This document shows positions 4,799 to 54,342 of a stretch of 64,000 nucleotides of DNA, piece by piece. Location: positions 1-64,000 of the forward strand of contig NZ_ADKM02000086.1 of NCBI RefSeq assembly GCF_000178155.2, read 5' to 3'. A program made the position numbers and the translations under genes. The notes beneath the pieces are model-generated. The model searched no databases and had not been told where the DNA came from. It saw only the letters and a program-made list of their open reading frames with translations. This stretch comes from Hominimerdicola alba 8. Lineage in GTDB: Bacteria > Bacillota > Clostridia > Oscillospirales > Ruminococcaceae. Each line of letters opens with the position of its first letter. The stretch's first letter is position 1.

Positions 4799-4799
4799 G

Positions 4800-26903: not shown

Positions 26904-27006
26904 TATAGCAATCCGCCTTAAAATTCAGACAAAATCCGGTCACAAAACCCATAAATCCGAGCTTTAGCGACCGGATTTTGTGAATTTAAATAGTTGGATT
27001 GCTATA
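26904..27006 (+). mobile_element. MITE family A, copy 1 (103 bp with TA repeats)
   Basis: The ends are TATAGCAATCC and GGATTGCTATA. The interior is a long imperfect hairpin of AAAATCC and GGATTTT arms. It lies just past the ybaK terminator, so it disrupts no gene. Confidence 0.9.
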
Positions 27007-27093
27007 TATATGGTGGTCTGTGTATCGTGTGGCGGCAGTTGCATCAGGCGGGGACGCCAATCTTGCCGTACAGGAGATATGGCTGAAAGAAAG

Positions 27094-27137
27094 ACGAAAA
27101 AATCCCCCTCCCGCATGTTCAGATGCGAAAGGGGAAC
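27094..27137 (-). terminator. Terminator of the formate/nitrite transporter gene
   Basis: The minus-strand stem TCCCC-CGCAT / ATGCG-GGGGA is followed by TTTTTTC. Confidence 0.8.
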
Positions 27138-27150
27138 AACCATTATTCTG

Positions 27151-27807
27151 TCAAGCCGCGCGTTTGTCGGCTTTTTCTGCACTCTTACTTACAATGAAAC
27201 CCTTACGGAGAAGCGGTATAAGAACGCCGCCTGCCGAGTTGCCTGCTGTCATGATAAGCAGTCTGCCGAATGATGCGGGTGACCACATTTTTGCGGCGGT
27301 GAAATAGAACATATTCGCAACACAATGCTCAAAACCGCAGAGAATGAACACTATGACAGGCAGGAAGATAGCGAGATGTCTGCCAAGACTGCTGTCTATG
27401 GTCTTGTAGCCCTCTGCCGCTATGAACATAAGTACACCGCAGAAGAATGCCAATATGAAAAGGCTGAGCAGAGAATCGCCCATTTTGACTTTGCAAAGTT
27501 CAGCCGCCTTTTCACCGATGCCTGCCGCGCGCGTGCAGAGGATAAGTCCGCCTGTGACCGCTGTGCCGACCAGATTGCCCAGCCATATAACAGCGAGATC
27601 TTTGAGATAACTCGGCTCACGCTCGACCGCGTAGCCGACTTTGCCTGTGTAAAGATTAAATCCAAAACTGAGTATCACGAACAGTCCCATACCGAAAAGC
27701 GCCGCACCTATGTACCTGTTATCACAGGAAAGGTAGACTACGCCGCCCACACCTATCATAAGCCCTGTGGCGACTGCCCGCAGAAATGTGTCTATTAATT
27801 TACTCAT
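27151..27807 (-). CDS. Formate/nitrite transporter family protein
   Basis: A 218-residue channel of the FocA/NirC family with six predicted helices. The central signature GFEHCVANMFYF near residue 157 includes the pore His, and TAGNSAGGVLI is the second conserved block. It passes formate, nitrite or a similar small anion through the membrane. AAAGG lies 8 bp before the ATG at 27807. No formate dehydrogenase or lyase gene is nearby, so the ion is uncertain. Confidence 0.92.
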   Translation of the reverse strand: MSKLIDTFLRAVATGLMIGVGGVVYLSCDNRYIGAALFGMGLFVILSFGFNLYTGKVGYAVEREPSYLKDLAVIWLGNLVGTAVTGGLILCTRAAGIGEKAAELCKVKMGDSLLSLFILAFFCGVLMFIAAEGYKTIDSSLGRHLAIFLPVIVFILCGFEHCVANMFYFTAAKMWSPASFGRLLIMTAGNSAGGVLIPLLRKGFIVSKSAEKADKRAA

Positions 27808-27898
27808 GATACCGACCTTTCTATATGTCATTCAGCCGCAGGTGTAAGATAGACAAAACAGATAACTGTCACACCGCCGTACTGCCGGACTATATAGA

Positions 27899-27927
27899 AT
27901 TATACCATGTCATTTCCCTGCTGTAAA
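27899..27927 (-). promoter_or_regulatory. Promoter of the formate/nitrite transporter gene
   Basis: On the minus strand TTTACA (27922-27927) and TATAAT (27899-27904) have a 17-bp spacer. Confidence 0.82.
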
Positions 27928-28319
27928 GGACAAAACGGTTCTTTTCCCAAATAAACATGACATATGCACCATTGGATATAGGTCAGAAGCAGGAAAACGG
28001 GATATTTTTACATATATTTCCTTTTTGACAGTGCAAAAAACTCTTATGAGCAATAGTGTACAGGAAACTATCATCGCAGATCTGTCAGGCAGATCCGTTA
28101 CAGCGGTATGACCATCACTAAAGGTCAGCGCGGGTATCGCTCGGTTTCTGAATAGCTTTGTTGAGAGAGCCGCTAAATAATTTTTTAGAAAGACCGCAAA
28201 CAGCATATTACAGACGAAAATTTCCAACAATGCGGCGGCGGAAAGATAACAGCAGGCAGGATATTTGCATATCTGCCAAAAAACTCCGATATATGCGCTA
28301 TTTTATGGCACTCTGCGAA
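27928..28319. other. Gene-free divergent spacer
   Basis: About 390 bp between the divergent transporter and GNAT promoters. A 106-codon minus frame here has no ribosome site and poor composition. I see nothing else definite. Confidence 0.4.
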
Positions 28320-28348
28320 TTGACTTTTTTACCGTGATAGTGTATAAT
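28320..28348 (+). promoter_or_regulatory. Promoter of the GNAT gene
   Basis: TTGACT (28320-28325) and TATAAT (28343-28348) have a 17-bp spacer. Confidence 0.83.
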
Positions 28349-28398
28349 ATATCGGTGGCATTTTTATGCTTATCTTACAAACGGCAGGTGTTGGTAGA

Positions 28399-28866
28399 AT
28401 GATCGTATTCAGAAAGATGTCTGCTGAGGACACAGAAATGCTGACAGATGTGCGCGTTACGGTACTGCGGGCGGCAAATCTGCTGAGTGATGATGCTGAT
28501 ATGTCTGAGATCGCAGAACAGTCGCGGCTTTACTACAAACGTGCGCTGAATGACGGCAGTCACACTGCATACCTCGCCTTTGACAGTGAAAAAGTCGTGG
28601 GCGCAGGCGGTGTCAGCTATTACACGGTGATGCCTACCTGCGATAATGTCACAGGCAGAAAAGCATACATAATGAACATGTACACCTCACCCGAATACCG
28701 CAGACAGGGCATAGCGCTGAAAATGCTGGATCTGCTGGTGAAAGATGCCAAAGAGCGCGGCATTACACACATCGCCCTGGAAGCTACGGCGGCGGGCAGA
28801 CCTCTTTATTTGAAGTACGGCTTTGTCCAGATGGAACATGAGATGATACTTCCGAAAGACGAGTGA
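28399..28866 (+). CDS. GNAT family N-acetyltransferase
   Basis: A 155-residue acetyltransferase. The acetyl-CoA motif A is MYTSPEYRRQGIALKMLD (R-x-x-G-x-A) near residue 98, preceded by the AYIMNM strand, and the C-terminal LYLKYGFV block is typical. The substrate amine is unknown. ATG at 28399 follows AGGTG at 8 bp; the upstream in-frame ATG at 28366 lacks a site. Confidence 0.9.
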   Translation: MIVFRKMSAEDTEMLTDVRVTVLRAANLLSDDADMSEIAEQSRLYYKRALNDGSHTAYLAFDSEKVVGAGGVSYYTVMPTCDNVTGRKAYIMNMYTSPEYRRQGIALKMLDLLVKDAKERGITHIALEATAAGRPLYLKYGFVQMEHEMILPKDE

Positions 28867-28872
28867 ATACAA

Positions 28873-29367
28873 GTGTACAAATATTCAGATAGCAGCTTTG
28901 AAAAAGTCAGCATCTGTGACTGCTTTGCCACTAAGCTGAAACACGATGAAAAAGCGCTGACCCTTGAGTTTGAAGAGGGCTTTTTCATTTTGACGGAGAA
29001 CAGTTCAAAATGGCAGTCAACGGGCATGTCGGAAGTGACGTTTTACATGAACGATACCGAGCGGGATATAAGCATAGAACTTCTGACTTTCCCGCGAGGC
29101 GGCGGTGATGTCATACTGACCGAGATGGCTCTGCAAAAGCTGGAACATCTCATGCAAAACAGTGCAAAGCTGGAGATCTTCGGTGAAAACAAGGAGAATG
29201 ACAGCTATCTCTTTGAAGGTGCTGTATATTACAAAGGCATGACAGGCACACAGAATTGTCAGATAAAGATAACAGCGAAGAAGATCACTTACCACTGGAA
29301 TGAAATAATGGTAATTTATAGCAATCCGCCTTATAATTCAGACAAAATCCAGTCACAAAACCCATAA
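28873..29367 (+). CDS. Unknown protein; stop codon destroyed by a MITE
   Basis: A 164-residue frame from GTG, 6 bp after the GNAT stop, with only a weak ribosome site. The protein is soluble, with alternating strand-like segments (EVTFYMNDTERDISIELL, CQIKITAKKITYHW), and I recognise no family. The last 16 residues (from YSNPP) are encoded by the inserted family A element. Removing the element and one TA restores ATT TAA, so the ancestral protein ended at NEIMVI. The change adds a tail but probably leaves the fold intact. Confidence 0.65.
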   Translation: MYKYSDSSFEKVSICDCFATKLKHDEKALTLEFEEGFFILTENSSKWQSTGMSEVTFYMNDTERDISIELLTFPRGGGDVILTEMALQKLEHLMQNSAKLEIFGENKENDSYLFEGAVYYKGMTGTQNCQIKITAKKITYHWNEIMVIYSNPPYNSDKIQSQNP

Positions 29368-29419
29368 ATCCCAGCTTTTGCGACTGGATTTTGTGAATTT
29401 AAAAAGTTGGATTGCTATA
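29317..29419 (+). mobile_element. MITE family A, copy 2, inserted in a stop codon
   Basis: 103 bp with TA repeats and ends TATAGCAATCC / GGATTGCTATA. The target TA was inside the TAA stop of the preceding gene. The far end lies 24 bp before the ABC-F start and places TATAAA upstream of it. Confidence 0.93.
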
Positions 29420-29443
29420 AATAGAGTAAGGAGTTTTAGTAGA

Positions 29444-31060
29444 ATGATAACAGTTTCAAACGTCAGCCTGTCCTTTGGCGGACAGCTTCTGTTCAAGGAC
29501 GTTGACCTCAAATTCACGAACGGCAACTGCTACGGCATAATCGGCGCAAACGGCGCGGGCAAATCGACTTTCCTGCGCATACTCAACGGCGAACTTGAAC
29601 CTACCACAGGCGAAGTTGCCATCACTAAGGGCGAAAGACTTTCAGTGCTGAAGCAGGATCACTTCGCATTTGACGAATACACTGTCCTCGACACGGTCAT
29701 AATGGGCAACAAGCGCCTTTATGACATTATGAAAGAGAAAGATGCACTGTACGCTAAAGAGGATTTCTCGGAAGAGGACGGCGACCGCGCAGGTCAGCTG
29801 GAGAGCGAGTTCGCAGAACTCAACGGCTGGGAGGCTGAGAGCGATGCTTCAAAGCTGATACAAGGTCTGGGTCTGCCTGAGGAACTGCTTTATCAGCAGA
29901 TGGCAGGACTTTCGGGCAATGAGAAAGTCAAGGTACTGCTGGCGCAGGCATTGTTCGGCAACCCCGATATAATCATGCTGGACGAGCCTACCAACCATCT
30001 TGATATAGATGCCATACGCTGGCTGGAGGATTTTCTGGCAGACTACTTCGGCACTGTGCTGGTCGTCAGCCACGACAGACACTTCCTCAACAATGTCTGC
30101 ACACATATAGTTGATATCGACTACACAAAGATAAAGATGTATGTGGGCAACTACGAATTCTGGTACGAGTCCTCACAGCTGATGCAGAGGCTCATCAAGA
30201 ACCAGAACAAGAAGGCTGAGGAAAAGATAAAGGAACTACAGGAATTCATCAATCGTTTCTCGGCAAACAAGTCAAAATCAAGACAGGCTACCGCAAGGCG
30301 CAAACTGCTGGACAAGCTGAGTGTCGAGGAAATGCCTGCATCTTCGAGAAAGTACCCGTTCATCGGCTTTAACATAGACCGTGAACTGGGCAAGGATATA
30401 CTCAAAGTCAACGGCATATCAAAGACTGTTGACGGCGTGAAGATGCTCAACAATGTCAGCTTCACACTTTCACGCACCGACAAGGTGGCGTTCATCGGTG
30501 AGAGCGAACAGGCTATAACACTGCTTTTCAAGATACTCGCAGAAGAAGTCGAACCTGACGAAGGCACTATAAAGTGGGGCGTTTCCACATCGCGTTCATA
30601 CTTCCCTGTGGACAACTCGGAGTATTTCAACGGGCATGACGAGAGCATCGTTGACTGGTTAAGACCCTATTCGACCTCAGAAGTCACCGACACTTTCCTG
30701 CGCGGTTTTCTGGGCAGGATGCTGTTCTCGGGTGACGAGATATACAAGCCTGTACAGGTATTGTCGGGCGGCGAGAAGGTAAGGTGCATGTTCAGCAGAA
30801 TGATGCTCTTCGGCTCGAATGTAATTCTGCTTGACAGACCCACCAACCACCTTGACCTTGAAAGCATCACCGCCGTGAACAATGCACTGCGCGATTTCAA
30901 GGGCGTTGTCATATTCGCAAGCCACGACCATGAGATAGTTCAGACCGTTGCAAACCGCATCATCGAGATAACTCCCGATGGCTGTATCGACCGCATGGGC
31001 ACTTACGAAGAATTCCTTGAGTGGAGAAGAGAACAGGGCATGAAGTCCTTTATAGAATAA
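29444..31060 (+). CDS. ABC-F family protein with degenerate second ATPase site
   Basis: A 538-residue soluble protein with two ABC domains and a linker, as in ribosome-acting ABC-F proteins (YbiT-like group). Domain 1 has an intact Walker A (GANGAGKS), an LSGNEKVKV signature and the Walker B region IIMLDEPTNHLD. The linker (about 235-310) is charged and helical. Domain 2 has GESEQAITLLFK in place of Walker A, so no lysine, a good LSGGEKVR signature, and LLDRPTNHLD, where Arg replaces the catalytic Glu. AAGGAG lies 10 bp before the ATG. The promoter region is occupied by a family A element. Confidence 0.9.
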   Translation: MITVSNVSLSFGGQLLFKDVDLKFTNGNCYGIIGANGAGKSTFLRILNGELEPTTGEVAITKGERLSVLKQDHFAFDEYTVLDTVIMGNKRLYDIMKEKDALYAKEDFSEEDGDRAGQLESEFAELNGWEAESDASKLIQGLGLPEELLYQQMAGLSGNEKVKVLLAQALFGNPDIIMLDEPTNHLDIDAIRWLEDFLADYFGTVLVVSHDRHFLNNVCTHIVDIDYTKIKMYVGNYEFWYESSQLMQRLIKNQNKKAEEKIKELQEFINRFSANKSKSRQATARRKLLDKLSVEEMPASSRKYPFIGFNIDRELGKDILKVNGISKTVDGVKMLNNVSFTLSRTDKVAFIGESEQAITLLFKILAEEVEPDEGTIKWGVSTSRSYFPVDNSEYFNGHDESIVDWLRPYSTSEVTDTFLRGFLGRMLFSGDEIYKPVQVLSGGEKVRCMFSRMMLFGSNVILLDRPTNHLDLESITAVNNALRDFKGVVIFASHDHEIVQTVANRIIEITPDGCIDRMGTYEEFLEWRREQGMKSFIE

Positions 31061-31064
31061 AAGA

Positions 31065-31101
31065 TAACTCCCCCGACCCACAAAGTCGAGGGAGTTTTTG
31101 G
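31065..31101 (+). terminator. Terminator of the ABC-F gene
   Basis: The stem AACTCCC-CGAC / GTCG-GGGAGTT is followed by TTTTTGG. Confidence 0.87.
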
Positions 31102-31109
31102 TACTTTTA

Positions 31110-31543
31110 TCATTTGGCAGATGGTTCGGACAGACCGCACCTGCCGCATTTTTCACCGATATTGAGCGCCTTGCACATCGGGCATTCCCAAGGTTTGCGC
31201 GTGCCGCATTCGGTGCAGAAATTGCCTGTGTTATGTGCAGAACATTTAAGACATATCCAACTTTTATAGCAATCCAACTATTTAAATTCACAAAATCCAG
31301 TCGCAAAAGCTCGGATCTATGGATTTTGTGACTGGATTTTGTCTGAATTTTAAGGCGGATTGCTATAGGTGCGCCGCACTGTTCGCAGAAATTGCCGCTT
31401 GCCATGAAACCGCAGCTGCACTGCCATAGCCCTAACACAGAGCCCATGCCCTGTGACATGAAAGTGGGGCGAGGGGAATCGGTGTGGGTGTTTGCCAGTA
31501 TCTTTTCAAGAAGTTCGCGCGGTATCTCTTTACGGTCGTTCAT
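31110..31543 (-). pseudogene. Zinc-ribbon protein gene split by a MITE
   Basis: The 5' part (31368-31543, AGGGAGG before ATG) encodes MNDRKEIPRELLEKILANT, then CSCGFMASGNFCEQCGAP. A family A element follows. The 3' part (31110-31264), in another frame, encodes ICLKCSAHNTGNFCTECGTR and further CxxC pairs, ending at SAK. Deleting the element and one TA joins them as CGAPKSWICLKC with no base left over. The parent had about 105 residues and four CxxC-type zinc knuckles, and resembles C-terminal ribbons of SPFH-like proteins. The present allele shifts frame after CGAP, so it is presumed inactive. Confidence 0.9.
31265..31367 (-). mobile_element. MITE family A, copy 3, inside the zinc-ribbon gene
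   Basis: 103 bp with TA repeats, opposite in orientation to the other copies. Net gain is 101 bp, hence the frameshift. The element proper is 99 bp. Confidence 0.95.
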
Positions 31544-31620
31544 TTTGTTACCTCCCTGATACTGATGCCGCACTGCGGGCATAAAGACGCAAGACGTATC
31601 TCGCCGCATTTATAGCCACT
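31540..31620 (-). pseudogene. Truncated upstream zinc-ribbon reading frame
   Basis: A frame ending at a TGA that overlaps the ATG of the zinc-ribbon gene (ATGA) reads SGYKCGEIRLASLCPQCG and on to EVTK, with CxxC-like pairs. It has no usable start; its upstream side meets a fragment of repeat family B. It looks like the tail of a coupled gene that lost its front. Confidence 0.5.
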
Positions 31621-31650
31621 GTTTTTGTGGTGTGTAAGCGGGATAACCAC
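31621..31650. repeat. Fragment of repeat family B
   Basis: GTTTTTGTGGTGTGT-AAGCGGGATAACCAC matches the right end of copies 1 and 4 with one base changed. No left end is visible nearby. Confidence 0.6.
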
Positions 31651-31724
31651 ATAACAAAATCTACCACAACACAAAAGTCAAATGCGAGTAAACAAAAACA
31701 GTCAATAAATTTATAAATAAGCCA

Positions 31725-31753
31725 TTGAACGGACGGCAGCATTGTGTTATAAT
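31725..31753 (+). promoter_or_regulatory. Promoter of the membrane protein gene
   Basis: TTGAAC (31725-31730) and TATAAT (31748-31753) have a 17-bp spacer. Confidence 0.8.
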
Positions 31754-31782
31754 TTTCACATACCAATTCAGAGGTGACTGTT

Positions 31783-32727
31783 TTGTCCGAAAAGAAAAAA
31801 CTGATACCCATACTTATCTCGGTCTGCCTGACCTTTTTCATGGTCGGTGTGGCTGAACTTACGGGTGAGCGGGAACTTATCTTCCCTGAGATAACAGCCA
31901 TCGCCATCGGTGCGCTGGCTGCACCTGCACAGGTCTGGAGCACTGACAGAAAAAGGCTTTTTATCCTTATTATGTCAGCCGCCGTCACTGGCATGGCGAT
32001 AGTTCGTTTCGTGCCGCTGCCGACTGTTTTGCAGATACCGATAGGTCTTGCCGCAGTTATGGGTCTGATAATAATTTCACATACAAGTTTTCTGCCTGCT
32101 ATATCGGCTTGCGTACTGCCGATAATGTTAGGCACGCGCAGCCCTTACTACCTGCTGTCTGTCGGAGTCATGACTGCACTTATACTACTGGCGCAAAAGC
32201 TGCTGGAAAAAGCAGGGCTTCGCGAGAAACGCGAGTTTATCCCCGAAAAGCCCGATGCTGCGCTGATAAAACTGAGGGCTGTGCAGGCGGCGACAGCTTC
32301 GGTGCTTTTTGCAATACCTGTGCTGATAGGTCAGCCGTTTTTTGCAGCACCGCCGCTGATAGTGGCATTCTGTGAACTGACGACACCCGAATGCAAGCTG
32401 ACGAAACGTCTGCCCGAAACATCAATAACCATTGCTATCGCTGCATTTATGGGCTGTTCATCAAGGCTGCTTTTATGTGAGATATTCGGTCTGCCGATGG
32501 CTGTAGCTGCTGCCCTGACCTGCTGTGCGATACTTTTCGGTGCGAAGTCTTCGGGTCTTTACTTTCCGCCATGCGGCGCAGTGGCAACGCTGCCGTTCCT
32601 TATCGCGCCTGAAATGCTGCTGAAATTCCCATTTGAGGTAACTGCGGGATTTCTGTGCTTTTTGCTGGTGATCCTTCTCTCGCTGAGATATCCCGCAAAA
32701 CACGGGACCGTTGTACACAACAGTTAA
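31783..32727 (+). CDS. Polytopic membrane protein, HPP-like, unknown
   Basis: A 314-residue protein with about nine hydrophobic helices. It appears to be an internal duplication: FPEITAIAIGALAAPAQVW in the first half parallels FAAPPLIVAFCELTTPECKL in the second. The FPPCGAVATLPFL stretch near the C-terminus recalls HPP-family membrane proteins. Its function is unknown. Start is TTG at 31783, set by GAGGTG 6 bp upstream; the frame also opens at GTG 31774, which overlaps that site. Confidence 0.75.
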   Translation: MSEKKKLIPILISVCLTFFMVGVAELTGERELIFPEITAIAIGALAAPAQVWSTDRKRLFILIMSAAVTGMAIVRFVPLPTVLQIPIGLAAVMGLIIISHTSFLPAISACVLPIMLGTRSPYYLLSVGVMTALILLAQKLLEKAGLREKREFIPEKPDAALIKLRAVQAATASVLFAIPVLIGQPFFAAPPLIVAFCELTTPECKLTKRLPETSITIAIAAFMGCSSRLLLCEIFGLPMAVAAALTCCAILFGAKSSGLYFPPCGAVATLPFLIAPEMLLKFPFEVTAGFLCFLLVILLSLRYPAKHGTVVHNS

Positions 32728-32733
32728 AACATA

Positions 32734-32770
32734 TGAAATGCCCCTGATGCTGCATCAGGGGCATTTTTTG
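32734..32770. terminator. Bidirectional terminator
   Basis: The perfect stem AAATGCCCCTGATG / CATCAGGGGCATTT has T-runs on both strands. It separates the convergent membrane protein and hybrid kinase genes. Confidence 0.92.
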
Positions 32771-32777
32771 TACTTTT

Positions 32778-35700
32778 TTACAGTTTGTCCCTAATCTCGC
32801 GGGCAAGTCTGCCAAGTTCTGCAAGCATAGCTTCGATATCGGGGCATTCCTGCGTTCTTCCGCGATAGAACATCTCTCCCTGATATGCCGTTTCGCCCAG
32901 TTCTTCAGCACCTACAGTACGCGCTGCGCCTTTCAGCGAATGAATCTTTATAGCAGCATTCTCACGGTCGTCAGCCGACACATATCTGCGTATGTCAGCC
33001 GCATACTCCTCAGCCGAATCAGCGAACGCACCCAGCGTTACACGGTAAAGTTCAGCACCGCCGCAGTGCTTTTCACCAACTTTTGTATCAAGACCTTTGA
33101 TGCTTTCAAGACCGCTGTGAAGTTCACTTTCATCCTGTGCAAGTTCTTCCAGCTTGCCGCTGCCCTGCCATATATCGGGGGTGAATCCCTGTTCGTTCAT
33201 GATATAGTCCTTGTCATCATCTATCATACGAACCATGCAGGCAGCAATATCGGGGTCAAACTGTGTGCCGCTGCACCTGATGAACTCAGCCCTGACCTTT
33301 TCCTGCGCCATTGGGTTAGAATAAGTACGTGTGGAAGTCATTGCATCATAGCAGTCAGCACAGCAGATTATACGCGCGGGTTCGGGAATATCCTTGCCTG
33401 CAAGACCATCAGGGTAGCCTGAACCATTGTATTTTTCGTGATGCGAACGCGCACCTATGGCAAGGTCGGGCATCTCCTTGATGGAAGAGAGTATCTCACT
33501 GCCGATTATCGTGTGACGCTTTATCTGCTCGAACTCTTCATCGGTCAGCCTTGAAGTCTTGTTGATTATATCTTCGCTGACACCTATCTTGCCTATATCG
33601 TGCATAAGTCCCATGCGGAATATCTGCTGTTGTTCAGCCTCGCTTTTGCCCATTCTGCGGGCAAGTTCGGCGGCATAAGTGGCAACGCGGTTGGAGTGAC
33701 CGTTGGTATAGTGGTCTTTTGCATCGACTGTCTTTGCCAGCGCCAGCATCATCTCCAGCGACAGCCGCTCACTGCGTATCTGCTGGCGGTCTACTTCACT
33801 CTTAAGACCTGTTTGCAGGTGGTACAGTTCGACCACGCGCTTTGTTCTCTGCATGAGGACTTCGGGAGCGAAAGGCTTTTTCACGAAATCTGCCGCGCCG
33901 TTTTTGAAGCCCGATGTTTCGGCATCGGCGCTGTCTTCACCCGTCACGAATATAACAGGTATATCGCGCAGTTCGGGATTCTCTTTAAGCCTGCTCAGCA
34001 CCTCAAAGCCCGACATGCCCGCAAGCCCGATATCAAGCAGTACTGCATCGGGACGAAGCCTGTTTGTAAGCGAAAGCGCTTCTTCACCCGTTGCAGTGGC
34101 AGTAACATCGAAAGTTCTGCCCAATATCTGCGAAGCCGCTGTGCGCACGACAGGATCATCATCGACCACAAGTACTTTCGGCGCGGTGCGGTGGGGTTTC
34201 TTTTCGGCGGCATGGCTCGTTTCCAGCTTGTCTTCGGGAAGGAGCGATGCTATCATCTTTTCAAGTCGTTCGCCGTCAACAGGCTTTGAAAGATAGTCGG
34301 TAAAGCCCTCACTGATATAAAATTCTCTTGCGCCCGAAACCGCGTTGGCAGTCAGCGCGATGCACTTTGCATCTTCATGTCCCTCCATCGCCCGCAGACG
34401 TTTCAGCGTTTCCACGCCGTCCATATCGGGCATCATGTGGTCTATGAAAAAGATGTCATACTCGTTCAGTTCAGCCAGCCGCAGAGCCTCACGCCCTGTG
34501 GAAGCGGTATCTATACCGATGCGGGTCTTTTTGAGCAGACCCTTGAAAACTGTCAGGTTCATGGCATTGTCGTCCACCACCAGCAGTCTTGCATTCGGTG
34601 CGTGGAAGAGTTCGTGGTAAAGGCGCACTCCCCTGCCGCCGTTTTCAAAGCGCTTGGCGTAATCGCCTATCTGCGCCCATCTGACGACTTTCTGCTCGAC
34701 TGCGAAAGAGAAAGTCGAGCCTTTGCCGTAGGTGCTGTCAACGTCCAGCTTACTGCCCATCAGTTCAAGAAGCTGGACAGTTATGCTCATACCAAGACCT
34801 GTGCCCTCTATCGAACGGTTTTTGCCCTCTTCGATGCGCGAGAATGGCGAGAACAGCTTTTCCATGTCCTCTTCCCTGATGCCCGCGCCTGTGTCGGCAA
34901 TGGTAAATCTCAGCTTTATCGACTTCTCACCGCTCTTCTCAAACCCGACCTCAAACCTGACACTGCCTTTTTCGGTATACTTGACAGCATTTGTCAGCAG
35001 ATTGAGTGCGCACTGCTTGACCCTTATCTCATCGCCGTAGAGCAGGTGCGGCATTTTCGGGTCAACCTTTACCTCGAATTTCAGACCCTTTTTGTCTGCG
35101 CGGGGGCGCACCATGTTCACAAGGTCGTTTATCGCAGAACCGAGTTCGTACTGTGTGGGTACAAGTTCCATTTTTCCCTGTTCGACCTTTGAGAAGTCGA
35201 GGATATCGTTTATCAGCGAAAGCAGAGTCCTGCCCGCAGTGCGGATATCTTCGGCATATCCGATTATCTGGCGTTCACTGCTCTCACGCAGTATCATCTC
35301 GTCCATACCCAGCACCGCATTTATGGGTGTGCGTATCTCGTGGGACATGCTTGCAAGAAATGCAGATTTCGCCTTGTTTGCGCGGTCTGCCAGCTGTCTT
35401 TGTTCTTTCAGCTGTTCCATGTACTTATAATGCTCGGTATCGTCCACCAGCATATACAGACTTCCGAAACTGTCGCCCTCAAATTCAAGTTCATTAACGC
35501 ATGGCGTGTAGATGCGGTCAGCTATCTCGATCGTCTGCCCCTCACTTATAGCCTGCTCGATGACCTCAACTGTTTCGGCAGGTGTTTCGGTCAGCTGAGG
35601 GTAGAGCGCCTTTGCAGGTTCGTTGAAATATCTGACTCTTCCGTCAGTATCAACAGCGATGATGCCCTCAGACAGCTTATCGACAACGTACTCATGGGTG

Positions 35701-36389: not shown

Positions 36390-36499
36390 AGTATCACCCC
36401 AAAATATATCTGTTACCCGATATACCGCCGTTTTACGCCGTTGGCAGAGCGGTTACCGTACTCTATATAAATATGGCTGTTCAGCCGTTTTCCCACTCT

Positions 36500-36528
36500 A
36501 TTATACAATATTATATATAGATTGTCAA
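36500..36528 (-). promoter_or_regulatory. Perfect consensus promoter of the hybrid kinase gene
   Basis: On the minus strand TTGACA (36523-36528) and TATAAT (36500-36505) have a 17-bp spacer. The leader of about 105 nt has ACGG/CCGT-type repeats but no recognisable cyclic di-GMP riboswitch. Confidence 0.87.
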
Positions 36529-36884
36529 TAAGTTCATCAAGTTATGTACGGAGGCAGAATATCGCGGAACACAGAGAAAAGAACAGGTGCAGCGTCAGCA
36601 GATAGCGGTGCTGAGTGTATTTTTCAAGCATATACAGCATACTGTCATTTTCCGAAAGATAAGGAATAAAAATTGCATCAGGCAGTATTCATTGAACGAA
36701 TTGTGTAAAACATATAATTTTTTACAGAAAATTTCTACACCCGCCAATATCCATATCTGCGAAGAAGTCAATATAGTTATGTGATATGATGAAATCAAGG
36801 CAAACAGCACATTGCGGCGCTGAGAAAAAGTCCATATAAACATAAAAGATGACTGCTTTTTGCTTGAAATTTATTAAAAAACAC
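36529..36884. other. Gene-free spacer
   Basis: About 355 bp between the divergent kinase and PIN-protein promoters. The frames here lack starts with ribosome sites, and I see no repeat or RNA. Confidence 0.5.
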
Positions 36885-36913
36885 TTGAATAATAGTTATT
36901 TGTGTGCTATAAT
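36885..36913 (+). promoter_or_regulatory. Promoter of the PIN-like protein gene
   Basis: TTGAAT (36885-36890) and TATAAT (36908-36913) have a 17-bp spacer. Confidence 0.82.
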
Positions 36914-36919
36914 GATAAT

Positions 36920-37101
36920 GACGGCGTATATCATGGAACATCACGCCGATTACAAGCGGTATCGCGGGAAGTTTTCGTTCTGCGGCTGCACGAAACGATT
37001 TGTGCCGACTGACCTGCATGTCTACCCGGCGCGGAGAGTCTTGTGTGGGCTGCATCTCACAGCTTTGCTGCGCTGCTGCAAGATACCGAAAGGAAAAGGA
37101 T
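36920..37101 (+). other. GC-rich 180-nt leader of the PIN-like gene
   Basis: This GC-rich leader contains GGCGT/ACGCC and GCAC/GTGC hairpins and repeated GCTGC words. An open frame crosses it but has no ribosome site. No known riboswitch or SRP signature was found. Confidence 0.4.
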
Positions 37102-38937: not shown

Positions 38938-39243
38938 TGACCGATGAAAATTGCAAGGCGCTTCCTGTTCTGAAAAAGCAGGCAGTCACCCGCATAACAA
39001 AGTCGGACGAGAACGGCTTTACACATACATTTCCCGTGTATACGGGAGTCAAAAAAGCTGTGGCGCGATAAATTCACAGCGCTGGGGCTTGACGACATCG
39101 ACTACACAAAGTACGATGATATTCTGCAAAGAAAGCCGATAGATGAGTTAGACCGTGACGAAGTTATCGCGTATCCGGTCATGCTGATGCGGCGGAGAGC
39201 GGCAAAACAGAAGCCCTCTGCATGCGCCTGCACTAAACAGTAA
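38937..39243 (+). pseudogene. Frameshifted small gene after the PIN-like gene
   Basis: An ATG overlapping the PIN-gene stop (ATGATGA layout) opens MTDENCKALPVLKK and runs to FPVYTGVKK before a TAA at 39071. In the +1 frame coding resumes as LWRDKFTALGLDDIDY and runs to a TAA at 39243. The junction is a run of six A at 39051-39056; one A fewer joins the halves as GVKKLWRDKF, giving about 101 residues. It may be a true frameshift, transcriptional slippage or a sequencing error. No family recognised. Confidence 0.7.
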
Positions 39244-39252
39244 AATAACACC

Positions 39253-39278
39253 TATCCCCCGTCAGCCGATGGGGGATA
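39253..39278 (+). promoter_or_regulatory. Inverted repeat before uvrC
   Basis: TATCCCCC / GGGGGATA with a 10-nt loop ends just before the uvrC ribosome site. It could be a weak terminator or hairpin. Confidence 0.5.
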
Positions 39279-39295
39279 ATTTGTAAGGAGAGCAC

Positions 39296-41140
39296 ATGTA
39301 TATCACCGATGATGACAACCCGCGTCTGCCTTTTCTGCGGGACAAGACCTCAAAGCTGACCACCTCGCCGGGTGTCTACATAATGAAAGACAAGAGCGGC
39401 AAGATAATATATATCGGCAAGGCAAAGAACCTGCACAACCGCGTGACTTCGTATTTCAGGCGGGGACAGGACCATCTGCCGAAAGTGTGGAAGATGGTAT
39501 CGAATGTCAACGACTATGAGTTCATCGTAACGGACAGCGAGTTTGAAGCGCTGGTGCTGGAATGCTCGCTGATAAAACTGCACACGCCGAAGTATAACAT
39601 TCTGCTGAAAGATGACAAGGGGTACAGCTACATTCGGGTGACTGACGAGCCGTATCCCCGCATACAGGCGGTATTGCAGAAAAGTGATGACAGCGCCGAG
39701 TACATCGGACCGTACACAAGTTCTTTTGCGGTAAAACAGGCGGTGGAAGAAGCGAACAAAGTTTTCAGACTGCCTACCTGCACCCGCGTTTTTCCGAGAG
39801 ATATAAAAAAGCAAAGACCCTGCCTTAACTTCCACATCAAACGGTGCATGGGTGTCTGTACAGGGAATTTTTCGGAAGAAGAATATCGCGCCGCAGTAAA
39901 ACAGGCGATAGAATACATCAAAAACGGCTCCGAGATGTCGGTGGAAAAGCTGACTGCCGAAATGGAGAGAGCGGCAGAAGACCTGGAATTTGAACTGGCG
40001 GCGCGTCTTCGGGACAGGATAGCCGCCATACAGAAAGCCGCAGAAAGCCAGAAGATAATCGACCGCACGATACCCGACTGCGACATAATAGCCATATCGC
40101 AGAATGTTGACATCGCCTGCGCCAGCGTGATAATGTATCGTGGCGGCAGGCTTACCGATAAGGCTGACTATTTTCTGGGTGACAGGGCTGAACCCGCGCA
40201 GATGATGGAAGAATTTGTGCTTAGTTACTACGCCATGAAAGATGATGCTCCCAAAACTATACTGCTGGAAGAAGAGCCGTCCGATATAGAGATGTTACAG
40301 CAATATCTGCGTGAGAAGTACGACCACGCAGTATACGTGAACGTACCGAAGAAGGGGCATCTGGTACAGCTGACCACACTCGCTAAGAACAACGCGAACG
40401 AGTTCATATCGGTGAGAGTGGGCAGGACACGCCGTGAGGTTGCAGGTCTGGAAGAACTGGCAAGGGCGCTGGGAATGGAGAAGCCGCCACGCTTCATCGA
40501 GTGCTACGACATATCAAATCTGGCATCTACAAACATGGTGGCGGGCATGGTGGTTTTTGAGAACGGAAGACCATGCAAAAAGCGCTACAAAAAGTTCAGC
40601 ATAAAGACGGTGCTTGAACAGAACGACTACGCCTGCATGACTGAGGTCATCGAAAGGCGCTTCGGTGAGTATTTCAAGGGCGAGGACGAAGGCTTTGCAC
40701 AGCTTCCCGACCTGATACTGCTGGACGGCGGAAACGGTCATGTGAACACCATAAAGCCTGTTCTTGAAAGGCTGAAAGTCAGTGTGCCGCTGTACGGTCT
40801 GGTAAAGGACGATCACCACCGCACCCGCGCCATTGCTACGGGGGACGGCGAGATCTCACTGCTGAAAAGCCGCGCGGCGTTCAACCTTGTGACGCAGATA
40901 CAGGACGAAGTCCACCGCGTTGCCATTACCTACCAGAAAGCAAAGCGCAAAAGATCGACATTTTCACTGGAACTGACGAAAGTTCGCGGTGTGGGCGAAA
41001 AAAAGGCTCAAAAGCTGATAACAGCGTTCAAGACAAAAGAGGCGCTAAAAAAAGCATCTGTGGAGGAACTGCGGGCTGTTGCGGGCATCAGCGAGGACAC
41101 TGCGAAAGAACTGAAAAATATCATAGATGAAATGAGCTGA
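39296..41140 (+). CDS. uvrC: Excinuclease ABC subunit C
   Basis: A 614-residue UvrC of full length. The N-terminal GIY-YIG nuclease has GVYIMKDKSGKIIYIGKAKNL, the UVR motif lies near residues 205-240, the RNase H-like half has CYDISNLASTNMVAGMVVF, and the tandem helix-hairpin-helix is at the C-terminus (VRGVGEKKAQKLITAF). It makes both cuts in nucleotide excision repair with UvrA and UvrB, which are not in this window. AAGGAG lies before the ATG. Confidence 0.97.
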   Translation: MYITDDDNPRLPFLRDKTSKLTTSPGVYIMKDKSGKIIYIGKAKNLHNRVTSYFRRGQDHLPKVWKMVSNVNDYEFIVTDSEFEALVLECSLIKLHTPKYNILLKDDKGYSYIRVTDEPYPRIQAVLQKSDDSAEYIGPYTSSFAVKQAVEEANKVFRLPTCTRVFPRDIKKQRPCLNFHIKRCMGVCTGNFSEEEYRAAVKQAIEYIKNGSEMSVEKLTAEMERAAEDLEFELAARLRDRIAAIQKAAESQKIIDRTIPDCDIIAISQNVDIACASVIMYRGGRLTDKADYFLGDRAEPAQMMEEFVLSYYAMKDDAPKTILLEEEPSDIEMLQQYLREKYDHAVYVNVPKKGHLVQLTTLAKNNANEFISVRVGRTRREVAGLEELARALGMEKPPRFIECYDISNLASTNMVAGMVVFENGRPCKKRYKKFSIKTVLEQNDYACMTEVIERRFGEYFKGEDEGFAQLPDLILLDGGNGHVNTIKPVLERLKVSVPLYGLVKDDHHRTRAIATGDGEISLLKSRAAFNLVTQIQDEVHRVAITYQKAKRKRSTFSLELTKVRGVGEKKAQKLITAFKTKEALKKASVEELRAVAGISEDTAKELKNIIDEMS

Positions 41141-41144
41141 TAAA

Positions 41145-41555
41145 ATGGTAAAAGAGATAGTCAAGGACATTATCTTCCTGAAAAAGAAGTCCGTAAAAGC
41201 GGACACAAAGGACATGCAGATCATCACCGATTTACAGGACACACTGAAAGCTAACCACGACCGCTGTGTGGGCATGGCGGCAAACATGATAGGCTACAGC
41301 AAGAGGATAATAATCTTCACGGCGGGCATAATGGACATCGTAATGATAAACCCCGTGATAGTGAAGAAAGCCCGTCCCTACGAAACGGAAGAAGGCTGTC
41401 TTTCGCTGACAGGCGTGCGAAAGACAAAGCGCTGGGAGATGATAACTGTTGAATATCTGGACACAAGTTTCAAGAAAAAGCGCGGCGATTTCACGGGATT
41501 TGTAGCGCAGATAATCCAGCACGAGTGCGACCATCTTGATGGGATAATAATATGA
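41145..41555 (+). CDS. Peptide deformylase-like protein
   Basis: A 136-residue short deformylase homologue. Motif 2 EGCLSL and motif 3 QHECDHLDGI are intact, giving the Cys and two His metal ligands and the catalytic Glu. Motif 1 is GMAANMIG, where the usual Gln that stabilises the reaction intermediate is Met. The shorter body and this change place it in the clostridial def-like branch, whose deformylase activity is not certain. It begins 4 bp after uvrC and is closed by a terminator. Confidence 0.8.
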   Translation: MVKEIVKDIIFLKKKSVKADTKDMQIITDLQDTLKANHDRCVGMAANMIGYSKRIIIFTAGIMDIVMINPVIVKKARPYETEEGCLSLTGVRKTKRWEMITVEYLDTSFKKKRGDFTGFVAQIIQHECDHLDGIII

Positions 41556-41558
41556 AAC

Positions 41559-41593
41559 ATCGGCAGAGGAAAAACTCCCCTGCCGATTTTTTT
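41559..41593 (+). terminator. Terminator of the uvrC-def unit
   Basis: The stem ATCGGCAG-GG / CC-CTGCCGAT is followed by seven T. Confidence 0.9.
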
Positions 41594-41635
41594 GCATATA
41601 TACTTTCGTTTATTATCATATCCCAATTTGGTTGT

Positions 41636-41671
41636 GTATTGTTTCCCCACCAAAGGCGTGGGAAACAATAC
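41636..41671. repeat. Strong isolated inverted repeat
   Basis: GTATTGTTTCCC and GGGAAACAATAC form a perfect 12-bp stem, with no T-run on either side. It is not a standard terminator, and its role is unknown. Confidence 0.55.
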
Positions 41672-41722
41672 GAAAAAACAGCCTTTTTGTATCATCAGCA
41701 ATACGCATCAAAATCGTGAGAT

Positions 41723-41750
41723 AAAAAAAGAGATGTCCTAAGACATCTCT
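41723..41750 (-). terminator. Terminator of the tRNA operon
   Basis: The minus-strand stem AGAGATGTC / GACATCTCT is followed by seven T, just past tRNA-Cys. Confidence 0.92.
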
Positions 41751-41755
41751 CATAG

Positions 41756-41826
41756 AGGCGCCGACCGGATTTGAACCGGTGGTCAGGGTGTTGCAGACCC
41801 ACGCCTTACCCCTTGGCTACAGCGCC
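41756..41826 (-). tRNA. tRNA-Cys (GCA)
   Basis: 71 nt. The acceptor stem GGCGCTG / CGGCGCC, the anticodon loop CTGCAAC (GCA) and the T-loop TTCAAAT are present. CCA is not encoded. Last of four tRNAs. Confidence 0.95.
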
Positions 41827-41835
41827 ATAAAAAAG

Positions 41836-41908
41836 AGCGGATTACGAGGCTCGAACTCGCTACCTCCACCTTGGCAAGGTGGCGCTCTACCAGATGAGCT
41901 AAATCCGC
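41836..41908 (-). tRNA. tRNA-Gly (GCC)
   Basis: 73 nt. The acceptor GCGGATT / AATCCGC pairs fully, the anticodon loop is TTGCCAA and the T-loop is TTCGAGC. CCA is not encoded. Confidence 0.96.
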
Positions 41909-41952
41909 AAGTGCTGAACTATCAGCTTTTTTATGAAGTGGTTACCCACAAG

Positions 41953-42026
41953 CGACCCGGATGAGACTCGAACTCACGACCTCCGCCGTGACAGGGCGGC
42001 GTTCTAACCAACTGAACTACCGGGCC
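41953..42026 (-). tRNA. tRNA-Asp (GTC)
   Basis: 74 nt. The acceptor GGCCCGG pairs with CCGGGTC, the anticodon loop is CTGTCAC and the T-loop is TTCGAGT. CCA is not encoded. Confidence 0.96.
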
Positions 42027-42052
42027 GTAGAGTTGTTCAAGACAACTCTTAA

Positions 42053-42128
42053 TGGTGGGGACTACAGGGCTCGAACCTGTGACCCTCTGCTTGTAAGGCA
42101 GATGCTCTCCCAGCTGAGCTAAACCCCC
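42053..42128 (-). tRNA. tRNA-Val (TAC)
   Basis: 76 nt including an encoded CCA, unlike the other three. The anticodon loop is CTTACAA and the T-loop is TTCGAGC. First gene of the tRNA operon. Confidence 0.96.
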
Positions 42129-42181
42129 AGATTTTCTTTGTCGTGAGTTTCGTTTTTGTTTTGTCCCTCACAACAGTATCT

Positions 42182-42210
42182 ATTATACACCATATCGTTC
42201 GATTTGTCAA
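42182..42210 (-). promoter_or_regulatory. Perfect consensus promoter of the tRNA operon
   Basis: On the minus strand TTGACA (42205-42210) and TATAAT (42182-42187) have a 17-bp spacer. Confidence 0.9.
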
Positions 42211-42280
42211 CCCCTTTTTTCAAAAAAAATAATATTTTTTTGTTTTAATTTTTTCATTGTTTATTAAATGCAATATCGGC

Positions 42281-42313
42281 AAAAAAACGCCCGTCAGATG
42301 GAAAACGGGCGGT
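42281..42313 (-). terminator. Terminator of the AT-rich lipoprotein unit
   Basis: The minus-strand stem CGCCCGT / ACGGGCG is followed by seven T. Confidence 0.9.
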
Positions 42314-42353
42314 CTTATCCTTTTATATTTTCATTAAAATCTTGCGCTGCAAC

Positions 42354-42515
42354 TTAATCAATTAGTGTAGTATAATTTCCATTTTTGAAACCCTGAACAA
42401 CTGACTTTACAGTAAAAGATTCAGAAATATTTTTAGCCTCATCGTATTCAACATAAAGCTCATTAAAATATGCGATATTATCCAATAATACCAATTCTTC
42501 ATTGCTTAAATTCAT
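42354..42515 (-). CDS. 53-residue AT-rich protein, possible truncated head
   Basis: The frame begins MNLSNEELVLLDNIAYF and ends GNYTTLID at TAA, with a terminator right after. The opening resembles the start of larger clostridial proteins that begin MNLS-x-EEL-x-LLD, so this may be a truncated head or a stand-alone small protein. A 16-bp tandem duplication (TGAATTTAAGCAA twice) lies across the start and moves the GAGGT ribosome site about 22 bp from the ATG. It follows the lipoprotein gene by 28 bp, and both share a low GC content. Confidence 0.55.
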   Translation of the reverse strand: MNLSNEELVLLDNIAYFNELYVEYDEAKNISESFTVKSVVQGFKNGNYTTLID

Positions 42516-42543
42516 TTTTGCTTAAATTCAATTTTACCTCATG

Positions 42544-43308
42544 CTAATTTAGTTCAGTTATTAATATTTTTTCTATTCTTTCATAAATAAAGTTTTGACC
42601 ATTAGTTATTCTGGAATAATCATCATCCTTACATACATTAAGGCAAACTTCCATATTTTCGTTAATTAAGCTGACATCTGATTTGAGTTCTGAAAACTCT
42701 CTTTCAATATCACTAATTTTTTCATATTCGCTTTGAGGAATAATTAAATCAAAAATTATTTTGGGGCTTTCTTTTTTATCCTCTATTTCGCCTGCCGATT
42801 TAATTATTTCTTCCGCGGAATAATCGGCATCAAATTCACTTGGAAAATAAATGGTTGAACTAGATAAGAATGATATATAATACTCCTCAATATTTGTTTT
42901 TTTCACATATCTATTAAGCCATTCTTCCATTCTATCTTTTATTACCTTGCTATAATATGCTTTCTTTTTTACATATAACTCTTCGTTATCATTCGCATAT
43001 ACATCCACAAAATACTCTTCTTCATTGATATTCACAGTTACATGATAATACAAACCTTTTGACTTACCTAAAAAAACACCGCCTGCAATCCCTTTATGTG
43101 TAACTACAGCTTTTATCCCATATTTATCATTAAAATATTCTTCAACTAATGGGTCAACTTCTTCTTCAAGTTTTTCCAGTTCAGGACGAGATAATTTCTT
43201 TGGTTCATTATTGTCGGTTTTAAAAATCGAACAGCCTGTTAAAATTAATAGTCCCACAACGATCGCTGCTGACAATATTTTTGAAAGGCTTTTCCGTAGA
43301 TATTTCAA
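42544..43308 (-). CDS. AT-rich lipoprotein, unknown
   Basis: A 254-residue lipoprotein with signal segment ILSAAIVVGLLILTGC (lipobox LTGC, Cys 26). The mature part is charged and Glu/Lys-rich, with a strand-like first half (VVTHKGIAGGVFLGKSKGLYYHVTVNI) and a coiled, acidic second half. No known family. TTG at 43308 is the likely start, as GAGGTG lies 6 bp before it; GTG at 43317 overlaps that site. The whole 42.3-43.6 kb block is AT-rich relative to its flanks, and a family A element sits in its leader. Confidence 0.75.
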   Translation of the reverse strand: MKYLRKSLSKILSAAIVVGLLILTGCSIFKTDNNEPKKLSRPELEKLEEEVDPLVEEYFNDKYGIKAVVTHKGIAGGVFLGKSKGLYYHVTVNINEEEYFVDVYANDNEELYVKKKAYYSKVIKDRMEEWLNRYVKKTNIEEYYISFLSSSTIYFPSEFDADYSAEEIIKSAGEIEDKKESPKIIFDLIIPQSEYEKISDIEREFSELKSDVSLINENMEVCLNVCKDDDYSRITNGQNFIYERIEKILITELN

Positions 43309-43327
43309 TATTGTCACCTCACTCTAT

Positions 43328-43417
43328 TATAGCAATCCGCCTTAAAATTCAGACAAAATCCATAGATCCGAGCTTTTGCGACTGGATTTTGTGAATTTAA
43401 ATAGTTGGATTGCTATA
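43328..43417 (+). mobile_element. MITE family A, copy 4, with 13-bp deletion
   Basis: 90 bp against 103 in the others. AGTCACAAAATCC is missing from the left arm, between two AAAATCCA words, as expected of slippage. It lies in the leader of the lipoprotein gene, 19 bp from the start codon. Confidence 0.92.
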
Positions 43418-43547
43418 GTGTTTTCAACTTGAATATTGTCTAAAAATCAGCTTGTGATCTATAGTCCCAACATTCATCGTCTTCTTCTTTCTTATTTATT
43501 TGTAAGAATTGTACAATTTGTTTTATATATAATGTACAATTGAAATT

Positions 43548-43576
43548 ATTATATCACCGTTCACGAGCCTTGTCAA
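43548..43576 (-). promoter_or_regulatory. Perfect consensus promoter of the lipoprotein unit
   Basis: On the minus strand TTGACA (43571-43576) and TATAAT (43548-43553) have a 17-bp spacer, about 240 bp before the gene. Two TGTACAAT words lie downstream of it, and the MITE lies between promoter and gene. Confidence 0.85.
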
Positions 43577-43661
43577 CGAAATATTCGACAATTCGTGATT
43601 ATAAACTTAATATCTCAAATCAGATTATTGTTATTGGTAATTTTGTGGAAATTTCTGCTAG

Positions 43662-43700
43662 TAAAAAAACGGACTGAAAACCGCCTTTCAGTCCGTTTTG
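43662..43700 (-). terminator. Terminator of hslO
   Basis: The minus-strand stem AAAACGGACTGAAA / TTTCAGTCCGTTTT is followed by TTT. Confidence 0.9.
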
Positions 43701-43707
43701 ATATTCA

Positions 43708-44586
43708 TTATTTCTTGCTCTCTTCCAGCAGTTTTCTGACCTCATCGGGGGTGAAACTGTAGTGTTTGCCGCAGAAGTGGCATTTGATATCCACATCGCC
43801 GTCCTTGATGATATCATTAAGTTCCTGTTCGCCCAATGAGATCAGCACCCGCTCTGTGCGCTCGCGGGAACAGTCACAGCGATAATCCACCTTGAAATCG
43901 TCAAGCACGTTTGGTTCTAAGCCGTCAAGCGCCATCAGCGCGATCTCATCGGTAGTGCGGCCGTCTTCCATCAGCTTTGTGACAGACTGCATCTTAGCTA
44001 TGTTCTGCTCTATCTGCGTGATTATCTCATCGCTTGCAAAAGGAAGCACCTGTATCAGGAAGCCGCCTGCGTTCTTCACCGTGAGGTCGGGGTTTATCAG
44101 CACGCCCAGAGCCGTAACGCTGGGCACCTGCTCGCTCTGTGCGAGGTATGCGGTGATATCCTCAGCTATTTCGCCGCTGACAAGGGGCACCTGACCCACA
44201 TAAGGTTCTTTAAGCCCCAGATCCTTTATAACGGTTATCGCGCCGTCAACACCAACTGCGCCTGCAACATCAAGTTTACCGATGGAGTTTGGCGGAAGTT
44301 CGACCACAGGCTGCATGACATCAGCCTTGACATTACCGTAGCTGTCAGCGACCGCGATAAGCTGACCCGCAGGTCCGCCGCCGTCTATCTTGACAGTCAC
44401 CCTGTCGTCCTCGCCTTTCATGCCGAAACCCATCAGCGAAGTACCCATAGCCAGTCTGCCCAGCGCCGCAGTCACCACCGCCGACGACTGATGAACACGC
44501 TCTATCTCACAGACTATATCCTTGCCATCGATGGCAGAGCATACCACCGAAGCGTCCTTTGAAATTGCTCTTACGATTCTTCCCAA
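43708..44586 (-). CDS. hslO: Redox-regulated chaperone Hsp33
   Basis: A 292-residue Hsp33. The C-terminal zinc switch is complete: CDC near residue 233, then CHFC near 266. The N-terminal half has GRLAMGTSLMGF and KIDGGGPAGQLI. It holds unfolding proteins under oxidative stress. The likely start is TTG at 44586, with GGGAG 9 bp upstream; this gives MGRIVRAI, in line with relatives. It is the last gene of a unit with a TrpR-family regulator, a methyltransferase and a disrupted membrane protein gene. Confidence 0.94.
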   Translation of the reverse strand: MGRIVRAISKDASVVCSAIDGKDIVCEIERVHQSSAVVTAALGRLAMGTSLMGFGMKGEDDRVTVKIDGGGPAGQLIAVADSYGNVKADVMQPVVELPPNSIGKLDVAGAVGVDGAITVIKDLGLKEPYVGQVPLVSGEIAEDITAYLAQSEQVPSVTALGVLINPDLTVKNAGGFLIQVLPFASDEIITQIEQNIAKMQSVTKLMEDGRTTDEIALMALDGLEPNVLDDFKVDYRCDCSRERTERVLISLGEQELNDIIKDGDVDIKCHFCGKHYSFTPDEVRKLLEESKK

Positions 44587-44609
44587 TTTAACTATCTCCC
44601 ATGTCAAAG

Positions 44610-45007
44610 TTAAAATATGCCCATATTGTAAAACAAAGCCGCCGCCACAATACAGACCACAAAGAATATGCTCTCGGCATTATCGGCACATCTGTGCGGT
44701 TCACGGCGCTTGTCAAACAGCGATGCACCGCACCTGTTCCACCAAAAGCCCGCCGCTGCGGGTATATAGCAATCCGCCTTAAAATTCAGACAAAATCCAG
44801 TCACAAAATCCATAGATCCGAGCTTTTGCGACTGGATTTTGTGAATTTAAATAGTTGGATTGCTATAATTATCATAACAGCCGTCGGCACACTGCCAAAT
44901 TTCCCATCGGGAAATTTTACGCCGACGATCAGTGCAATAAAAAGCATAATGGCGGACATTCCGCCTGCTATCCCGAAACCGCGCGGCACTCGGCGGAAGT
45001 CATTCAT
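44610..45007 (-). pseudogene. Small membrane protein gene split by a MITE
   Basis: The 5' part encodes MNDFRRVPRGFGIAGGMSAI and a helix up to VMII. A family A element follows. The 3' part encodes IPAAAGFWWNRCGASLFDKR and a last helix to MGIF. Removing the element plus one TA joins ATT ATA CCC exactly in frame, restoring a protein of about 99 residues with three hydrophobic helices. The family is not recognised. The gene overlaps the methyltransferase end and lies before hslO, so the element also sits in the hslO transcript. Confidence 0.88.
44765..44867 (+). mobile_element. MITE family A, copy 5, inside the membrane protein gene
   Basis: 103 bp with TA repeats and ends TATAGCAATCC / GGATTGCTATA. 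Net gain is 101 bp, so the reading frame is broken. Confidence 0.95.
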
Positions 45008-54184: not shown

Positions 54185-54216
54185 CTGTTGTCTAAAAAAG
54201 TTTCCGAATAAATTAT

Positions 54217-54339: not shown

Positions 54340-54342
54340 GAA

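Follow-up and report, generated by a model that had tools for sequence, protein, structure and literature searches.

The window and its five family A copies

The window analysed here is a 64,000-nucleotide stretch of contig NZ_ADKM02000086.1 (C51) from the 4.05-Mb draft genome of Hominimerdicola alba 8 (G000; 136 contigs, 98.8% complete). It contains five copies of a short palindromic element, designated family A, some of them adjoining genes for an ABC ATPase and HSP33. Family A very probably represents a genome-wide family of miniature inverted-repeat transposable elements (MITEs) of the IS630/Tc1-mariner type, similar to RUP. The copies and the parts of copy 5 are given below; G024 is a near relative, with aligned flanks 84–97% identical to those of G000.

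26904..27006, plus strand: family A copy 1; 103 bp, both TA counted; 95% identical to copy 3; DNA fold z −7.3
29317..29419, plus strand: family A copy 2; 103 bp; directly 5′ of an ABC ATPase gene (ABC_tran, ABC_tran_Xtn); site empty in G024 (L209)
31265..31367, minus strand: family A copy 3; 103 bp; 3′ of the same ABC ATPase gene; site empty in G024, with TG, not TA
43328..43417, plus strand: family A copy 4; 90-bp form, without 13 bp between two CAAAATCC repeats
44765..44867, plus strand: family A copy 5; 103 bp; 5′ of the HSP33 gene; cleanly empty in G024 (L183)
44765..44775, plus strand: left terminal inverted repeat of copy 5 with flanking TA (TA + TAGCAATCC)
44804..44828, plus strand: apical hairpin of copy 5, CAAAATCCATAGATCCGAGCTTTTG; the portion common to elements of other genera
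44857..44867, minus strand: right terminal inverted repeat of copy 5 with flanking TA

The sequence was read at all five places. From TATA to TATA the copies measure 103, 103, 103, 90 and 103 bp, and all five carry the exact 11-bp ends TATAGCAATCC/GGATTGCTATA, so that the initial annotation (shared ends, four copies at 103 bp and a fifth at 90 bp) was accurate. Copies 1, 2, 4 and 5 point one way and copy 3 is reversed; read in its own orientation, copy 3 is 100% identical to copy 5 and 95% identical to each of copies 1 and 2. The 11-mer end has ten matches in the window with at most one mismatch, against a mean of 1.28 and a maximum of 5 in shuffled sequence (0 of 100 shuffles reached 10). The three copies folded as DNA (1, 4 and 5) gave z = −7.3, −5.7 and −8.2. 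The 90-bp form recurs at 4 of the 39 own-genome sites examined.

As is characteristic of MITEs, the family A elements are short (below about 200 bp), non-coding and bounded by terminal inverted repeats. A match to a conserved RNA family, which according to the initial annotation would speak against mobility, was not seen: the five Rfam matches in the window, a tetrahydrofolate (THF) riboswitch (59361–59461; 83.7 bits, gathering score 36) and four tRNAs, overlap no copy, and eight related loci gave no match at the gathering score. Weak Rfam matches stayed below the cut-off.

Distribution of family A

The end TATAGCAATCC occurs 115 + 110 = 225 times in exact form in the own genome (control, 1 + 0), which holds about a hundred family A copies or more. 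The apical 25-mer, with at most two mismatches, occurs 68 + 74 times (control, 0). Among 181 candidate copies, identity to copy 5 is 96% or higher in each of the best 40 and complete in 11 of these, copy 5 included. Many dispersed, similar copies, another hallmark of MITEs, are thus present. For a genome total of 115, about 1.8 copies would be expected in the window, which has five (Poisson P = 0.038) and is at most mildly enriched. The proposal of recent movement within about 18 kb was not supported, since sequences identical to copy 5 lie on eight other contigs; local amplification of the family is ruled out by the genome-wide copies.

With copy 5 as the query, 12 of 61 genomes matched at E ≤ 0.01, the own genome included. 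The strong matches all belong to the same genus, and four of the 12 genomes match weakly (best E 6.5e-5 to 0.009). Phage, plasmid and viral sequences contained no copy of the element or of the patterns tried. Judged by their listings, open-access papers gave no MITE or IS630-type palindromic repeat of Ruminococcus or Ruminococcaceae, most subscription papers lying outside this search; the available part of PMC10969869 mentions neither IS630 nor Ruminococcus.

Two further observations concern the surroundings of the copies. At C27:56390-57319 of the own genome (L008/L066), a complete copy is followed about 0.8 kb on by a right-end fragment with an identical right flank, as if by duplication or recombination through the element. 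A second palindrome family, of about 126 bp with ends TRTGGTTATCCC, is present at window positions 4674–4799 and 54214–54340 (ends with at most two mismatches), with a single end at 31640–31651. Family A copies sit between both TRTGGTTATCCC ends in four loci (L017, L026, L027, L030) and adjoin one end in L023.

Insertion sites and target preference

Family A had been taken in the initial annotation for gene-less, TA-inserting elements mobilised from elsewhere, a view that the same sequence at orthologous places of distant relatives, with no empty sites, would have contradicted. Empty sites exist and, together with the target preference, bear this view out. The comparisons covered copies 2–5; G024 is empty at the places of copies 2, 3 and 5, and at copy 4 the relative's flank could not be aligned, so no empty site was read. 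For copy 5, the empty GCGGGTA-TA-ATTATC of G024 corresponds to the filled GCGGGTA-TA[TAGC...GCTA]TA-ATTATC. The empty site of copy 2 reads ATT-TA-GATAG, with small flank differences. Elsewhere in the own genome, the insertion at L019 splits a gene that is a single 123-aa frame in G002, where the empty site (L052) reads AC-TA-AGG. Target-site duplication is read from filled/empty pairs with TA at L019 and copies 2 and 5, and with TG at copy 3. At L019:1501-1603 the inserted copy also supplies an ATG, from which a 111-aa frame runs into the remainder of the split gene.

Family A ends (at most one mismatch) were absent from all ten relatives' loci scanned around the gene next to copies 2 and 3 (L209–L218) and from six of seven around the gene next to copies 4 and 5 (L183–L189), a single end occurring in L188. 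Most simply, the insertions would be younger than the split from G024.

The base outward of the TA at 39 sites (78 flanks) is A in 46%, G in 46%, T in 8% and C in 0% (P = 6e-16). With A or G on 72 of these flanks, the target is Y-TA-R. Sites within open frames of at least 120 codons make up 12 of 39 for family A versus 666 of 780 for control TA sites (P = 2e-13).

Related palindromes in other genera

The motif CAAAAYCCATATATSNRAGCTTTTG, or a near form, lies at the centre of palindromes of nearly equal length in other genera. The apical 25-mer (at most two mismatches) was found in 12 of 297 genomes of the taxonomic family, in eight genera, with 0 control matches. It is also present in 39 stretches of a named collection, whose record titles include Oscillospiraceae, Ruminococcus, Roseburia and Lachnospiraceae; these are titles of metagenome-assembled genomes (MAGs), in which contamination is possible. 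Six of these stretches are cut by the stretch end; among the other 33, the outer arms pair at 11 or more of 14 positions in 23 and score 8–10 in ten. The ends vary among elements that share the apex and include TATAGCAATCC, TACTAAACACC, TACTAATCCCC, TAGTAAACGACAT and others.

In the sister family of G030, the end TATACTAAACACC occurs 131 + 131 times with at most one mismatch (control, 2 + 1). The 28 elements read there have 99–101 nt between the duplications, or 116–117 nt where the apical loop contains an additional small hairpin, as in L146, L151 and L152. A strict looping constraint on helix phase looks unlikely, because the lengths of about 86, 99–102 and 116–117 nt, duplication excluded, do not differ by whole helical turns.

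Palindromes of 102 bp with ends TATAGTAAACGACAT and a different interior were seen at L065:4712-4813 (own genome) and L236:192-293 (G020). The same ends surround the conserved apical loop in L082 and L134. Interiors and ends seem exchangeable between palindromes, as far as the sequences indicate.

In the MAG RUG10798, 7 of 14 stretches found through the apex end 32–41 bases from it (L108, L127, L129, L136, L139, L143, L145). The fragmentation of draft genomes in the Ruminococcus group may be partly attributable to these repeats.

IS630-family elements with matching ends

Profile NF033545 (IS630) matched 48 of the 297 genomes at E ≤ 1e-5, 13 of them over the cut-off. In G162 (L242/L269), the ends TAATACTAAACACCGATTAAACTATAGACAAAA and TATACTAAACACCATTTAAAAACAGGATAAAA lie 1,134 bp apart, TA included, and an IS630 gene is situated between TACTAAACACC ends. 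The gene has two frames, with matches to HTH_23/HTH_33 and DDE_3 (82 bits, cut-off 28.6); NF033545 scores 141.7 bits (cut-off 100). The left end of the element resembles that of the G030 MITE L103 (TAATACTAAACACCAATAAAACTATAGACAAAA), about 31 of the first 33 bp matching; its right end resembles that of the G030 MITE L159 (TTATACTAAACACCATTTAAAA) over about 21 bp, with the same extra base on one side. A 78% identical element with both ends present was found in G240 (L273), and G030 itself holds two half-copies (L267, L268) with one such end each. Sister-family ends therefore stand at both ends of an IS630-family element in G162 L269 and G240 L273. Two relatives of the IS630 DDE protein, 71–72% identical and both cut by contig ends, occur in viral contigs, and one (L284) continues to an end reading GAGTTTAGTATTA. 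The 1,251 plasmid records that match the protein are all below 60% identity.

The search for a longer autonomous copy in the own genome drew on 100 of the 225 TATAGCAATCC ends. Twenty stretches were taken, 19 of them at unpaired ends, and among these none was long: 16 of the 19 ends have a partner 103 bp away that differs by one or two mismatches, and three belong to truncated copies (L066, L069, L071).

Stem pairing and the apical loop

Alignment A1 comprises 20 hand-chosen elements, most of them found through the apex itself. Its 517 cells pair in 93% of cases, the shuffled mean being 75% and slid controls reaching 37–47%; 20 of the 26 consensus pairs show changes on both sides with pairing kept. 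The covariation is present in terminal and inner stems alike. In the terminal stems it would arise because both ends must fit one transposase; in the inner stems it could reflect selection on the hairpin or template-switch correction.

Template-switch correction is a known mutational behaviour of quasi-palindromes. There is a real possibility, though not the favoured one, that the compensatory changes as a whole were produced by mutation, with template switching perfecting imperfect palindromes, and not by selection. Such an origin concerns the stems and is compatible with a MITE. It agrees with a covariation that runs equally through terminal and inner stems, but leaves the conserved unpaired loop unexplained.

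The loop (ATATAT..RAG) is nearly invariant across genera, and the stems around it change on both sides. A less biased check was provided by the 28 elements of G030, which were selected by their ends from stretches mainly away from apex hits: ATAT is kept in all 20 elements of standard length. The loop was not found in the two IS630 elements with complete ends (G162, G240), where the best match has 8–9 mismatches of 25; it would accordingly belong to the MITEs alone. A tentative and rather doubtful proposal is that the loop CCATATAT..RAG might be a working part of a cross-genus superfamily of palindromic MITEs of about 100 bp. It might act as a hinge, a single-strand site or a protein-binding site for movement or upkeep, and would have been retained while ends and stems were exchanged, and their pairing restored, to suit different transposases. 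What short palindromic MITEs need beyond their ends thus becomes a question that can be tested.

Mode of movement

Family A is tied to IS630 through sister elements that come close to it in length and apical 25-mer and whose ends are those of an IS630-family element. IS630 is the most likely affiliation, judged for the superfamily from the sister-family ends and for family A from the likeness of the element. An IS630-type transposase supplied in trans would bind the TAGCAATCC ends, cut out the 99-bp element and paste it into a TA, which would be doubled on repair. The long palindrome and its central conserved loop would serve the element itself through bending, hairpin formation or protein binding. 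For Ruminococcus this would add a MITE family of high copy number and lineage-specific insertion, for which empty sites and a preferred target are at hand and an IS630 lineage is a plausible partner.

Several results weigh against this assignment. PF13358 had no match in the own genome and none over the cut-off in 29 genomes of the genus, two weak hits being without TATAGCAATCC ends; NF033545 had none in the own genome. The DDE protein of G162 found no match in the 29 genomes, in a search that had no positive control; nor did these draft assemblies or the own genome yield an IS630 element with TATAGCAATCC ends. An assembly of 136 contigs may, for its part, lack repeated 1-kb elements. The IS630 gene of G162 is spread over two frames; stops were counted within its match and within those of the G240 and G030 copies, any of which may be inactive. 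In the sister families that end in TACTAA, 48 of 56 cases have direct TAA or TTA flanks, which is ambiguous between a 3-bp duplication and TA plus one fixed base and differs from the plain TA of family A. These flanks and the missing partner are the two results that sit least easily with the assignment. Among the insertion sites, G024 has TG where TA is expected at copy 3, the comparison of the site filled in G002 (L052) with L019 is not clean, and the empty sites could have arisen by precise excision in the relatives instead of insertion here. The IS630/Tc1-mariner mobiliser of the initial annotation is thus upheld by the sister-family ends on an IS630-family element, but no such element with family A's own ends was found in the own genome or in the 29 genomes of the genus. 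The partner of family A may be unassembled or lost, or a different IS630 lineage may be used.

The same MITE anatomy could have been moved by another transposase that chooses TA, for example of the IS5/IS427 type (DDE_Tnp_1), although this is improbable. YTAR is a target of IS5 too. DDE_Tnp_1 genes occur in 7 of 10 genomes searched, with two matches in G000, and no IS630 partner was found for the family A ends. None of the 16 DDE_Tnp_1 loci in the 10 genomes, however, is bounded by TATAGC- or TACTAA-type ends within 1.5 kb on each side, and these transposases were rejected as the mobiliser; IS630 ends are found on sister families that share the apex. In G030, whole 100-bp MITE copies adjoin DDE_Tnp_1 gene fragments at L177 and L180, on both sides in the latter.

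Retention of the elements for a role as cis-acting RNA hairpins (terminators, processing sites or regulators), with their spread secondary, is very unlikely. The strong folds, the 20 of 26 consensus pairs with both-side changes, the loop conserved in copies selected by their ends and the sites mostly outside open frames would suit such a role. However, no Rfam match at the gathering score covers a copy, and the insertions are lineage-specific. Orientation is unbiased as well: at 20 sites between co-directional genes (crude gene calling), nine copies have the same orientation as the genes and 11 the opposite, which speaks against a strand-specific RNA role. REP/REPIN elements moved by a tyrosine transposase, with a GTAG-tagged hairpin beside a RAYT gene, are an unlikely model, because family A has inverted ends and a TA duplication.

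Comparison with known systems

IS630-family insertion sequences such as ISY100 double a TA target on insertion, and their transposase combines two helix–turn–helix motifs with a DDE domain (PMC2170065). Unlike the gene-less family A, these are full insertion sequences. The copies of ISY100 have TA on their flanks, where the TACTAA sister elements mostly have direct TAA/TTA. A preference of IS630 for the TA in CTAG, given by a title in the reference list of PMC2170065, fits the Y-TA-R of family A.

ERIC is a small mobile repeat with terminal inverted repeats, a target-site duplication and TA termini; Rickettsia palindromic elements (RPE) are 105–146 bp in size and form long stem-loops, some with TA ends (PMC2229807). 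By description, both resemble family A as small mobile repeats, and that source, as available, gives no IS630 link for either. Correia/NEMIS elements of Neisseria resemble family A in having a form of about 107 bp, terminal inverted repeats, a target-site duplication and 5′TA termini; they give stem-loop transcripts (PMC2229807). Unlike family A, they have a 24-bp terminal inverted repeat and a 155-bp form with an internal 50-bp sequence, and a role for RNase III has been proposed for them.

RUP, the repeat unit of pneumococcus, is an element of 107 bp in 108–110 copies that, like family A, has no reading frame, folds tightly, has TA at its target sites and carries ends like those of an IS630-family element (PMC2229807, PMC3049150). 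Its insertion has been reported near insertion sequences (PMC2229807, PMC3049150), which the G030 sister copies beside transposase fragments (L177, L180) recall. RUP differs from family A in its host and, by eye, in its sequence, and its proposed partner is known in its own host, whereas that of family A is not. The likeness of family A to RUP (with IS630-Spn1) was judged by anatomy, namely size, copy number, lack of a gene, TA target and folds.

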